Source: Balneola sp.
GTDB lineage: Bacteria > Bacteroidota > Rhodothermia > Balneolales > Balneolaceae
Length of the DNA stretch: 62,529 nt
Assembly: GCA_002696035.1 (NCBI GenBank)
Contig: NZQV01000025.1
Coordinates: 62,700 to 125,228, forward strand
Reading direction: 5' to 3'
The translations under genes were made by a program, and so were the position numbers. The notes under the pieces are model-generated. The model was not told the origin of the DNA and searched no databases. It saw nothing but the letters and a program-made list of their open reading frames with translations. The number at the start of each line of letters is the position of its first letter. Within the stretch, counting starts at the first letter, position 1. Below, one piece after another: positions 2,629 to 23,033 of the stretch.

Positions 2629-3891
2629 ATGACTTCATTACTTCGAGTTTATAATCAGGCGAGTGCTAAGATCCAGAATTTGGGTGGACGGCAGTATGAT
2701 CTGAAGGGGACTCCTCCTGAATGGTGGCCTACCTTTACGAGTAATGACAGTGGTATCCATATCTCGGAGAAGTCGGCGCTTACGCATATGGCTTATCTTC
2801 GGGGTATTAATTTGCTTGCCGGCTCTATTGCTACCCAGCCGAAGCATTTGTTTTTCAGGGGCGAGAATGGGAAGGAAGTCGCAAGGAATAAGAGGGCGCA
2901 TAAGCTTATCAGTAAGACGCCTAATCAGTTTCAGAATAGTTATCAATTTCATTTCTATATGGTGACCATGCTGCTGATGCATGGTAATTTTTATGCGTAC
3001 ATCAACCGGGATGCTTTTTATGAGCCGGTGAGTTTGCGCCCGATCTATCCTTCTATGGTGGAGCCGAAGGTTCGGAAGGATGGGGTGAAGGAGTTTCATG
3101 TGCGCGGGGAGAATATCAATAAGGTTTTTTCGAATAACGAGATCTTTCATGTGTATGGATTGTCGCTTGATGGGGTTATGGGTATCAATCCGATCAAGTA
3201 TGCGGCGGAGACACTGGGTTTGGGTTTGGCTGCGAAGAAGATGCAGAGTTCGGCTTTTGGCAAGGGATTGCATGCCGGCGGGGTTATTCACATCCCGGAG
3301 GAGTACAAGGGAGTGATGGGTTCTACGGATGAAGAGTCTGAGCAGTTTATGGAGGCGGTGCGTAAGTCCTTCCGCAAGCTGTACCAAAACGGACCGGATA
3401 GCTGGCATGAGATGATGTTCCTGGAGCCGGGGTGGAAGTTTGAGCAATTTAAGTTAAACCTGGAGACGGCGAAGATCATTGAGACCCGCAAGTTTGATGT
3501 GGCTGATATTGCCCGATTGCTTGGAATCCCGTTGCATAAGCTTATGGAGATGGATAAGGCTACGGAAAGCAATATTGAGCAGCAGGGAATTGAGTATGTG
3601 CAGGACGGGGTGATGCCAATCACGTTGAATATTGAGGCTGAGGCAGATGCTAAACTGCTGAAGACGAGTGAACAGGATGATTATTTCTACAAGTATAACC
3701 TGGACGGCCTGATGCGCGGAACACTGAAAGAGCGATTTGAGGCATATAGTACAGCTCTTGGTAAAAATGCGCCCGGCTTTATGACTCCGGCCGAGATCCG
3801 TGACCTGGAAGATCTTGGGCCAGCCGATGAAAGCGAGCTGTTTAAGCCGGATAACATGAATAAACAAAATTTCACACCGGAGACGGCATGA
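2629..3891 (+). CDS. Phage portal protein (HK97 family)
   Basis: A 420-residue portal subunit; twelve copies form the ring through which DNA is packaged and to which the tail joins. The family signature is seen along its length: AYLRGINLLAGSIATQPKHL near 55-75, NSYQFHFYMVTMLLMHGNFY near 105, FSNNEIFHVYGLS and GINPIKYAAETLGLG around 165-200, and the C-terminal FDVADIARLLGIPLHKL with a following IEQQGIEYVQDGVMPI stretch. The length matches HK97-type portals. It overlaps the protease gene by 4 bases, indicating one morphogenesis operon. No terminase gene precedes it in the window. Confidence 0.93.
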   Translation: MTSLLRVYNQASAKIQNLGGRQYDLKGTPPEWWPTFTSNDSGIHISEKSALTHMAYLRGINLLAGSIATQPKHLFFRGENGKEVARNKRAHKLISKTPNQFQNSYQFHFYMVTMLLMHGNFYAYINRDAFYEPVSLRPIYPSMVEPKVRKDGVKEFHVRGENINKVFSNNEIFHVYGLSLDGVMGINPIKYAAETLGLGLAAKKMQSSAFGKGLHAGGVIHIPEEYKGVMGSTDEESEQFMEAVRKSFRKLYQNGPDSWHEMMFLEPGWKFEQFKLNLETAKIIETRKFDVADIARLLGIPLHKLMEMDKATESNIEQQGIEYVQDGVMPITLNIEAEADAKLLKTSEQDDYFYKYNLDGLMRGTLKERFEAYSTALGKNAPGFMTPAEIRDLEDLGPADESELFKPDNMNKQNFTPETA

Positions 3892-20622: not shown

Positions 20623-21321
20623 TCACCTTTTATCGACTATATCAAGCAATAAAGGCATGTATTCGGTGATTTGTTCGGAGGGGTAACCTTTGCGCATCAA
20701 AAAGTCGAACATCTTTTTTTTGCGTTTTTCTGCCGGTTCTCGCTGATAGCGTTTCTTCTTTTTTTTAATGAGTTCGACGATGCTTTCCTTGATCGCCTTA
20801 TCTCCAAAAACCTGTTGGATACAATTTTCAGCTACGGACTTTGAAATGCCTTTTTTAAAAAGATGATTCCGGACTTTATATGGACCCCAATTATTGAATT
20901 CGAATTTTTCCTGTGTGTAGGTAAGGGCGAATTTCTGGTCGTCAATGTATTCCTTTGCTTCAAACTCATCGAGTATTTCTTCAACGTAGTGGCCAGAATA
21001 GCCTTTTTTCCAGGCCTTGTCTTTGAGTTCTTTTCTGGAGTGATCGCGTCGGGAAAGGATACGAAATAAATATTCACGGGCGGCCCAGTGGTCTTCGGCT
21101 TCCGCAATTCGGTCAAATAAAGAAGGCGTTATTTCAACGCCTTTTTTTAGATTAAGTTTGGTAAGTGTGGATTCGGAAACACCGATCAGAAATTGGTTAT
21201 CCGCGAAAAGTGAAAATCGGGTGGCATTCTTTTTCTGGACCTGGATCTCAGAAATAGTAGCCGGAAGAAGCCTTCTGGCTTCCTCCAGCTTTTCCTCTTT
21301 TGACTTCCGCTTATTCTTCAA
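20623..21321 (-). CDS. recX: RecX, regulator of RecA
   Basis: A 232-residue RecX-type protein, which binds RecA filaments and limits their activity. It has the three-helix tandem repeats of the family: [40 protein letters not shown], and [19 protein letters not shown], and a C-terminal repeat ending in [14 protein letters not shown]. It starts with TTG inside the 3' end of recA (11-base overlap) so translation is coupled. Longer than the E. coli protein (about 166) through an added N-terminal basic segment. Confidence 0.92.
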
Positions 21322-22375
21322 CTTCTGCTTTTTCCTTTTTCTTCTTGTCTTTTCCGTCCTCTTTCTCGTCTTCTTCGAGCTCTTTACCCATCAGTTTGGC
21401 ACGAACTTTCTTCTCGATCTTCTCAGCGAGTTCCGGATCTTCCTCGAGGAACTGCATGGCAGCATCTGATCCCTGACCAATTGGCTCGCCACCATAACGG
21501 AACCAGCTCCCGCGTTTCTCAATGATGTCGTATTCCACCGACAGATCCAGGATCTCAGAAATTCGCGAGATCCCTTTTCCATACATAATGTTGAATTCAA
21601 CCACTTTGAAAGGAGGGGCCACCTTGTTTTTGGCTATTTTTACTTTGGTACGGTTTCCAACTACCTCATCGCCACTTTTGATAGAACCTATTCGCCGGAT
21701 ATCTATACGTACGGAAGAATAGAATTTAAGTGCGCGTCCACCAGTTGTGGTCTCGGGATTGCCAAACATCACCCCGATTTTTTCACGAACCTGGTTAATG
21801 AAGATACAGGAAGTCCGGCTCTTATTAATGATACCGGTGATCTTACGCATCGCCTGAGACATCAACCGTGCCTGGAGGCCCATGTGTGAGTCACCCATTT
21901 CACCTTCAAGCTCTGCGCGGGGTACAAGGGCCGCAACGGAGTCAATCACAACCACATCAAGGGCACCCGAGCGAATAAGGGTTTCAGTGATCTCTAACGC
22001 CTGCTCTCCGCTGTCGGGTTGAGAAACCAGCAGCTCCTCCACATTGATTCCCAATGCTTTTGCGTAACGTGGGTCAAAAGCATGCTCTGCATCGATGAAT
22101 GCGGCGTAGCCTCCGGCTTTTTGTGCCTGGGCAATTACCTGTAGAGCGAGCGTCGTTTTACCACTGGCTTCCGGACCGTAGATCTCGGTAACACGTCCGC
22201 GGGGAATACCTTGCACCCCAAGGGCGTAATCCACCATAATGGAGCCCGTTGAAATTACATCAATATCCTGAACGGACTCTGAGCCCAGCTTCATGATGGT
22301 TCCTTTGCCGTGTTGTTTTTCAATTTGCCCCACAGCCATGTCGAGGGCTTTTTGTCGATCGTTTGATTTAGCCAT
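21311..22375 (-). CDS. recA: RecA recombinase
   Basis: A 354-residue ATP-dependent strand-exchange protein of homologous recombination and SOS signalling. Walker [12 protein letters not shown] lies at about residues 66-76, Walker [11 protein letters not shown] near 140, loop L1 [17 protein letters not shown] and L2 [24 protein letters not shown] near 205. The C-terminal 35 residues are a strongly charged Lys/Glu tail, as in many RecA proteins. It is followed by overlapping recX. No LexA-type operator that I can name stands in front of it; the upstream gap holds one end of the repeat-flanked element at 22415-22841. Confidence 0.98.
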
Positions 22376-22414
22376 GATTGTTCTCTTTTTTTATGATTGA
22401 TATTCTTTTAAGGC

Positions 22415-22446
22415 AAAATTCCAAGAACCAAGCTCCAAGTGTCAAT
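22415..22446 (+). repeat. Left inverted repeat of four-helix-bundle element
   Basis: A 32-base sequence beginning AAAATTCCAAGAACCAAG. Its reverse complement matches 22810-22841 at 26 of 32 positions. It ends on the stop codon of the enclosed gene. Confidence 0.7.
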
Positions 22447-22811
22447 TAACTTGCCTTCTGAGATTTTGCGATGGATGAAAATATTTTGATCATTTCTTCT
22501 GCTTCGTCTATAAGTTGAGTACGAATTTCATTTAGATCTTTTTTATCAAATAAATATAATAATCGTAACCAATAGGCTGATTCTTTAGATTCTTTTCTGC
22601 ATACTTTAATTCGATAAAAGAAATCTTTCCTGCTTAATGCTTCATTAGCTTCAATATAATTTGCGCCTACTGATCCAGAACTTTTCACCAATTGCTTAAC
22701 ATCCTCAATATTACAAACATCTTTCGGAACTCGTCGAGCAAATTTTCTGACATCGCGAGCAAAAGTATACGTGCGTTTTGCAAGGTCAAATATTTTATTC
22801 GATTGAGCCAT
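22446..22811 (-). CDS. Four-helix-bundle protein (S23/23S-IVS family)
   Basis: A 121-residue all-helical protein of the family first seen in 23S rRNA intervening sequences and common as a dispersed gene in Bacteroidota. Family marks are FARRVPKDVCN, a VKQLVKSSGSVGANYIEANEA stretch (the conserved S.S..ANY.EA), RKDFFYRIKVCRKESKESAYW and a C-terminal RTQLIDEAEEMIKIF. The proteins form pentamers in solved structures; a cell role is not established. Perfect fit of the gene between two imperfect inverted repeats, with repeats touching start and stop, suggests that the gene travels as a small unit. Confidence 0.88.
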   Translation of the reverse strand: MAQSNKIFDLAKRTYTFARDVRKFARRVPKDVCNIEDVKQLVKSSGSVGANYIEANEALSRKDFFYRIKVCRKESKESAYWLRLLYLFDKKDLNEIRTQLIDEAEEMIKIFSSIAKSQKAS

Positions 22812-22841
22812 TGGTACTTGTAATTTGGTTTTTGGAATTTT
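22810..22841 (+). repeat. Right inverted repeat of four-helix-bundle element
   Basis: A 32-base sequence ATTGGTACTTGTAATTTGG and onward, reverse complementary to 22415-22446 at 26 of 32 positions, and overlapping the ATG of the four-helix-bundle gene. Confidence 0.7.
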
Positions 22842-23033
22842 TCATTCACTCAAATATAAGACCAGGGTATGTCAATTCATGTCACCCTTATGGTGGTGAA
22901 TGAATATATGTTCAATATATGTGATAGACAAACTACACTTGAACCTTTTTCATATTTCCCCAAAAAATGTTTTCTGTTTGTATAGTAAGAGGGGTGAAAA
23001 TGGAATTCCTTACAAAATATTTTTAAAAAGGGA

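Follow-up and report, generated by a model that had tools for sequence, protein, structure and literature searches.

A mobile origin has already been suggested for the intervening sequences (IVS) of rRNA that carry an S23 ORF. The cyanobacterial STRR are heptamer repeats, and the attC cassettes of integrons are single genes beside variable imperfect inverted repeats. The 23S IVS of Coxiella burnetii was described as a 428-nt sequence with an S23 ORF and a 28-bp terminal stem, from which it is excised by RNase III (PMC4990558). In a review of diversity-generating retroelements (DGR), PF05635 is stated to resemble Avd (PMC10053308). Direct repeats of the heptamer TAACTGA, arranged in arrays and in most cases preceding a start codon, were described in Beggiatoaceae; heptamer arrays occur sporadically in Gammaproteobacteria, Cyanobacteria and Bacteroidetes, and no mechanism for their spread was found as far as that account goes (PMC4679880).

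The stretch of DNA analysed here, the window, comprises 62,529 nucleotides of a Balneola sp. contig (NZQV01000025.1). It contains an intact gene for a four-helix-bundle protein of 121 aa (S23/IVP, PF05635, TIGR02436) at 22446..22811 on the minus strand, flanked by a stop-codon-side arm at 22410..22446 (core 22415-22446) and a start-codon-side arm at 22810..22846 (core 22810-22841). The initial annotation had described 32-bp imperfect inverted repeats that touch the two codons, and this was borne out: the cores match at 26 of 32 positions, the left arm shares the last base of the stop codon, and the right arm shares two bases of the ATG. Extended to 37 nt, the arms 22410-22446 and 22810-22846 are 78% complementary and 363 nt apart. 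In an ungapped scan of the 62.5 kb, this pair was the top inverted repeat with a score of 34 (runner-up 30), and the same scan of five Markov controls gave 0, 2, 1, 0 and 0 repeats scoring at least 28. Local alignment of the 300-nt flanks also scored 34, a value reached by 1 of 5000 dinucleotide shuffles. The four-helix-bundle gene between the repeats was likewise upheld: the protein passes the cut-offs of PF05635 (43.7 bits against 33.8) and TIGR02436 (62.5 bits against 24), and its AlphaFold model has four helices at a mean pLDDT of 91.8. The modelled structure matches the S23-family entries 2rld and 2gsc, which hold five chains each. The unit encodes a single ORF with PF05635 only, and no transposase was found inside it by ORF list and profile search. 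As in the rRNA IVS, a single S23/IVP ORF fills a unit about 430 nt long whose termini are complementary, over 28 bp there and 37 nt here.

The unit is not an insertion in an rRNA helix, since it sits between recA and a promoter-like motif. The recA gene (21311..22375, minus strand) lies directly downstream of the unit and has orthologues in all ten genus genomes. The motif, TGTAAGG-N16-CTCTTAC, stands at 22985..23014 on the minus strand, upstream of the recA leader, and the leader contains a box, TTGTCTATCACATATATTGAACATATATT (22903..22931, minus strand), that was recognised by eye with minor variation in 10 recA leaders. The unit is inserted between this box and recA. A check for empty sites, as proposed by the initial annotation, was run and found the recA leader empty in eight of the ten genus genomes, the unit being present in the window's own genome and in genome G003. 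The four-helix proteins of these two recA-leader units are 61% identical, and the RecA proteins 93%. Because the motif precedes recA in all ten genomes, with or without the unit, it is native to recA and lies outside the unit. In the own genome, three four-helix genes are located directly upstream of DNA-maintenance genes: L013 upstream of recA, and L004 and L005 upstream of genes that we take, by eye, to be recN and smc. The sites upstream of recN and smc are each common to nine genomes and are old sites.

The same motif accompanies other genes of the genus. It was found at most 260 nt from the start codon in 46 of 115 genus copies of the four-helix gene, leaving 69 without it; it lies between arm and gene in 18 of the 46, outside the arm in 13, and beside weak arms in 15. 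It also precedes 9 of 20 Y1 transposase genes in addition to the ten recA genes. The background rate in 600 kb was three matches for a wider form of the motif and two for a narrower form, the latter standing before a four-helix gene and before a Y1-type gene (Y1_Tnp 24.2 bits against 23; a REP-associated transposase profile 55 against 80, below cut-off). An integron integrase gene, IntI, at 1144-2118 of the window on the plus strand (TIGR02249, 361 bits against a cut-off of 265) is followed by a phage portal gene at 2629-3891 and is preceded by the motif at 1084-1113. The motif was absent from the 80 loci of a wide survey and from 30 loci of a search with the L108 protein, and all six strict matches in the L092 search were genus copies; its absence beyond genus loci marks it as a genus-level feature. 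A conserved RNA hairpin was considered for TGTAAGG...CTCTTAC and rejected; as the motif precedes recA without a unit, and as CTCTAAC variants break the pairing, it is treated as promoter-like. A search of the 11 own loci against Rfam gave four weak matches, none near the gathering score. The company of recA and recombinases suggests that the units may be regulated by DNA damage.

Paired arms are a common property of these genes. The own genome contains 13 matches at 11 loci. At 10 of these loci the arm score is higher than 26, which is the 95th percentile for mismatched pairings; the one miss, L005, scores 21. The count of 115 distinct copies in the ten genus genomes leaves out L118 and L119 (unmatched by the profile of own-genome proteins), L006/L007 (duplicates of L010/L011) and L120/L121 (repeats of the recA copies). 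Against mismatched arm pairings, 85 of the 115 exceed the 95th percentile and 39 the 99th, so that 30 copies failed the arm test. The wide survey, a scan of named genomes of which many are metagenome-assembled, yielded 80 relatives, by title from Bacteroidota, Balneolota, Patescibacteria, Chloroflexota, Clostridia, Proteobacteria, Planctomycetes, Methanophagales and others, and includes L193, a repeat of genus locus L033. Three of the 80 loci had too little flank; among the remaining 77 copies, the arms of 57 exceed the 95th and of 29 the 99th percentile of cross pairs, compared with 13 and 3 of 183 control ORFs in the survey loci. In many copies the arms adjoin start or stop codons. The arm sequences differ between copies and match within a copy. 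A 32-mer shared among copies, as the initial annotation had expected, was therefore rejected, each copy having arms of a different sequence; on the grounds that it had itself named against its reading, unrelated or low-complexity flanks, the idea of a common 32-mer fails when these grounds are taken literally. What stood of the repeat architecture is a pair of matching arms peculiar to each copy, in 85 of 115, in the form of quasi-tandem heptamers.

The arms are arrays of words of about 7 nt, mostly read inward. At a shift of 7 the self-match of the arms is 0.57 in the genus and 0.56 in the survey, and at a shift of 14 it is 0.56 and 0.52, against about 0.3 for shuffled arms; the 7-nt period that defines heptamer repeats is thus present, although some words, such as GTGATATG, have a period of 8. 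The similarity of arms was compared with the similarity of proteins in 9939 pairs from 144 of 237 units, those with an arm score of at least 30, after 13 duplicate and 5 short-flank loci were dropped and with the pairs limited to units without a common flanking protein. Read inward, the arms gave r = 0.251 (0 of 1000 permutations), and read outward, r = 0.004. Mean arm similarity rose with protein similarity, from 0.40 where the latter was low, through 0.44 at 0.3-0.5, 0.56 at 0.5-0.6 and 0.70 at 0.6-0.7, to 1.24 above. Since the mean at 0.3-0.5 barely exceeds the baseline (0.44 against 0.40), close relatives account for much of the correlation, which could reflect plain co-inheritance. When each unit was compared with its nearest relative at another site, the inward score exceeded the outward one in 51 units against 10, with 7 ties, at a protein similarity of at least 0.6; in 72 against 23, with 11 ties, at 0.5-0.6; and in 82 against 30, with 15 ties, at 0.35-0.5. 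When own and cross arms at the same site were compared, 208 of 358 pairs favoured the own arms and 98 the cross arms, with 52 equal, which indicates that at many sites the word is simply inherited.

Individual clades follow the same pattern with exceptions. In the L092 clade, arms score at least 30 at 13 of 19 loci; GTGA-type words occur in the genus, the family and two loci of another family (proteins 51-52% identical), and two more distant loci (43-47%) have GTGCGTA- or TGCGTAA-type words. In the L108 clade, GAATATCGAAT-type words were found at three loci of families f18 and f40 (L319, L322 and L323); L328 carries another word, and L318 and L326 are reversed, with arms far upstream. Six word families of the genus each occupy 2 to 4 distinct sites, some with one flank in common. 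Units with the GTGATAT word, at a site called A in both orientations and at L093 elsewhere, align from arm to arm, and their flanks are unrelated; in the GAATTCAG family, among the alignments listed, homology continues beyond the left arm up to the motif. Same-word sites that neighbour each other within one genome lie partly inside a duplicated gene region, so local or tandem gene duplication may contribute to the likeness of their words. The reversed exceptions and the overlap with site A weaken single lines of this evidence, and the nearest-relative test strengthens another.

The words also occur without a gene. A search of 600 kb from two sister genomes yielded 44 short hairpins, which are interdependent because several sites are counted in both sisters. 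Half of them (22) are word-periodic, and 21 of these fit the arm library of the four-helix units better inward, with a mean of 30.4 against 18.7 outward and 18.2 when shuffled; the 22 non-periodic hairpins divided into 12 inward and 8 outward, with 2 ties. Word arrays were further counted in 296 genomes of the phylum, where a protein was called cognate by hand-set limits of E about 1e-33 or lower for L092 and 1e-20 or lower for L108; G131 and G271 (E 4e-22 and 9e-20) were left out as L092 cognates. Of the 43 genomes that encode the cognate protein, 29 contained GAAYRTY arrays, compared with 35 of the 253 that lack it (Fisher p 1e-12, uncorrected for kinship); within the family the counts were 21 of 25 against 2 of 11, and outside it 8 of 18 against 33 of 242. 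GTGAT arrays were present in 8 of 19 genomes with the cognate and in 19 of 277 without; within the family the figures were 8 of 15 against 5 of 21 (p 0.09), and outside the family no link was found (0 of 4 against 14 of 256). The GAAYRTY pattern matched 64 of the 296 genomes and its reversed control 20, and the GTGAT pattern matched 27 and its control 12. Arrays thus stand without a cognate match in 35 genomes for GAAYRTY and in 19 for GTGAT. In G020 and G025, which belong to one family, the reversed control of GAAYRTY matches 79 and 62 times; different heptamer words may thus be abundant in other lineages. G137 contains 73 GTGAT-array matches, and its best match to the L092 protein is only 3.7e-7. 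In the window, a mosaic of about 100 bp at 2126-2230, right after the integrase, combines three arm words, GAATGTT, GTGAAAGG and AATTCAAAAT, with no four-helix gene.

Orthologous sites differ in their occupants, as read by eye in ten genus genomes per site. Site A lies between two genes that, to judge by their sequence, are presumably of the CoA-binding type and, in convergent orientation, YajQ-like; it holds the four-helix gene in one orientation in three genomes and reversed in two, hairpins with two different words in three, and nothing in two. At site E, two genomes have the gene, three a hairpin with an unrelated word, three one-arm remnants, and two nothing. At site C, the gene was found in three genomes (G006, G004 and G008, the last taken from the shared-site comparison), remnants in two, a hairpin in one, nothing in three, and a toxin pair in G003. 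This pair (L141:2738-3246, minus strand), a PemK-like toxin with a DUF2281 partner, stands where the sister genome holds a word-armed gene; its left edge resembles the arm word by eye. The sisters G006 and G003 were aligned over 119 kb at about 95% identity, in 24 synteny blocks longer than 300 bp. Among 14 listed gaps, chosen by size limits, seven concern word hairpins or armed genes: six of these gaps are swaps, and in the seventh a single arm was gained. With the hairpins that were aligned through, eight sites are swapped, eight conserved (0.77-1.00) and one unclear; two of the eight swapped sites keep a residual similarity of 0.40-0.44, and at one of the eight G003 carries TTCCAAG, the word of the window's own unit, where G006 carries AACATTGA. 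From one sister species to the other, a given intergenic site can thus hold a different word, a member of a different protein clade, a gene in reverse, a hairpin lacking the gene, or nothing. Many sites are common to up to nine genomes, which means that movement is infrequent at some places. Among the copies compared, none recurred in near-identical form at a new site. No target-site duplication was evident by eye at site C and the G006/G003 junctions, and the recA junction offers at most TTG/TTTG.

The recurrence of this layout, both around related genes and where no gene is present, suggests minimal mobile DNA of a kind so far unrecognised. Our main reading, to which we give a probability of about one half, is that they are minimal mobile units whose ends are protein-specific word arrays, accompanied by non-autonomous siblings. 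Most likely, the protein would form an oligomer that recognises the word array of its own unit at either end, an idea based on the five chains in each of the S23-family entries, and would bring the element ends together. Either the recombination or replication enzymes of the host or a recombinase acting in trans could then carry out strand exchange. A copy that has lost its gene would persist as a short hairpin of the same word and act as a non-autonomous sibling, and newly arriving units would preferentially settle in, or displace, hairpins already present at a restricted number of intergenic positions. We infer the binding of nucleic acid by the protein and its need in movement, as well as the order of occupants at a site and the mechanism of replacement. 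Of the mobility proposed in the initial annotation, a repeat-bounded unit that comes and goes with no transposase of its own found support, and a shared 32-mer did not. A role in defence was rejected, as no PADLOC match was found.

The strongest rival, itself unlikely, holds that mutation alone makes the palindromes: template switching homogenises the arms, slippage lengthens them, and the genes are passengers in the loop with no part for the protein. Template switching was described to homogenise arms and to invert spacers (PMC8604942), and it would account both for arms that match and for the gene found reversed at site A; in addition, gene-less hairpins are common and no clear strand asymmetry is seen. 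However, mutation of this kind leaves unexplained why words follow protein clades and are predominantly read inward, why GAAYRTY arrays are associated with the cognate protein, and how one word is replaced by an unrelated one between flanks about 95% identical. Template switching may nevertheless help to keep the arms matched and explain the reversals, and it would be the main rival if the protein binds no words. An improbable reading takes the arrays as operators or RNA sites for autoregulation, the gene-less hairpins as the regulon, and movement as incidental. It agrees with the link between word and clade, with the many arms that adjoin start or stop codons, and with the proposal of TAACTGA arrays as post-transcriptional sites (PMC4679880), but autoregulation needs no matching arms at both gene ends, the words and occupants differ at sites between sister species, and the neighbouring ORFs at 11 loci look unrelated by eye. 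Least probable of all is an RNA element whose arms form the cut stem of a transcript, as in RNase III-excised rRNA IVS, with the intergenic copies as relocated IVS: the layout equals that of the Coxiella 23S IVS (PMC4990558), and with the motif outside the upstream arm in 13 copies both arms could be transcribed, but sense-strand G-U-type mismatches are in no clear excess (131 against 118; 88 against 79 in the genus alone), a stem needs no repeated word within its arm, and in 18 of the 31 genus copies with the motif and arms scoring at least 30 the motif is situated on the gene side of the upstream arm, ahead of the ATG, which would put that arm outside the transcript. For the same reasons, the unclear G-U asymmetry and the motif inside the arm, the RNA fold for processing suggested in the initial annotation found no support. 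Minimal mobile units with word-array ends remain the preferred reading, and it is more likely that the arms act on the DNA level than as an RNA stem.

Several known systems share features with these units. Like integron cassettes, the unit consists of a single gene with imperfect inverted repeats, and the window has an IntI gene; unlike attC cassettes, it has arms at both gene ends that are made of heptamer arrays. The resemblance to REP/RAYT systems and MITEs lies in the short, palindromic, intergenic copies without a gene beside gene-bearing ones and, for REP/RAYT, in the upstream motif common to nine of the 20 Y1 transposase genes of the genus, whereas the gene here encodes a four-helix bundle and not an HUH nuclease. 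Y1 transposases are present in all ten genus genomes. Palindromes were found at 14 of the 20 Y1 loci and not at the other six, and their match to the arm library scored 11-18, the shuffle level; action of a Y1 transposase in trans was rejected, as the palindromes at these loci, where found, are other sequences. Palindromes of this other kind frame Y1 genes at L330, L335, L347 and others, with arms about 500 nt apart. The modelled fold appears similar to Avd of DGR (4dwl and 8ub7, TM about 0.65), but at a Foldseek E of about 0.1, a weaker likeness than that to the S23-family entries. Unlike in DGR, RVT_1 was unmatched in eight of the ten genus genomes, the window's own included, and matched in two (the genomes searched being drafts); a reverse transcriptase in trans was rejected on this count.

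The closest likeness is to the rRNA IVS, which also share a sporadic distribution and for which no transposase has been described. The units here differ in that they lie between protein genes, have heptamer-array arms that follow the protein clade, and occur in many dispersed copies with gene-less hairpins and turnover at sites. A literature search in PMC brought up no inverted-repeat-bounded intergenic S23 genes that we recognised, weak evidence as subscription journals and preprints lay outside its scope; we regard the unit as a new form of a known kind, and there is a considerable probability that the kind, too, is new. If the main reading is true, a helical bundle of 120 residues, in which no catalytic domain is known, determines the termini of a mobile element, the element occurs across bacteria and some archaea, and the matter can be tested in a culturable genus with closely related species that differ at sites. 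It is possible, though doubtful, that S23/IVP genes in general form a widespread class of mobile elements without a known recombinase, with ends of their own words that the protein recognises, autonomous and non-autonomous pairs, and replacement of hairpins at intergenic sites defined by structure, of which the rRNA IVS and many heptamer arrays would be special cases. As in the TAACTGA arrays and STRR, the heptamers here are tandem and mainly intergenic, while unlike TAACTGA the words of the four-helix units stand as paired arms and not as direct repeats. The arms of these units thereby offer a lead to how heptamer arrays spread, and may give one possible answer to three puzzles together: the function of S23/IVP proteins, the movement of rRNA IVS and the origin of heptamer repeats.
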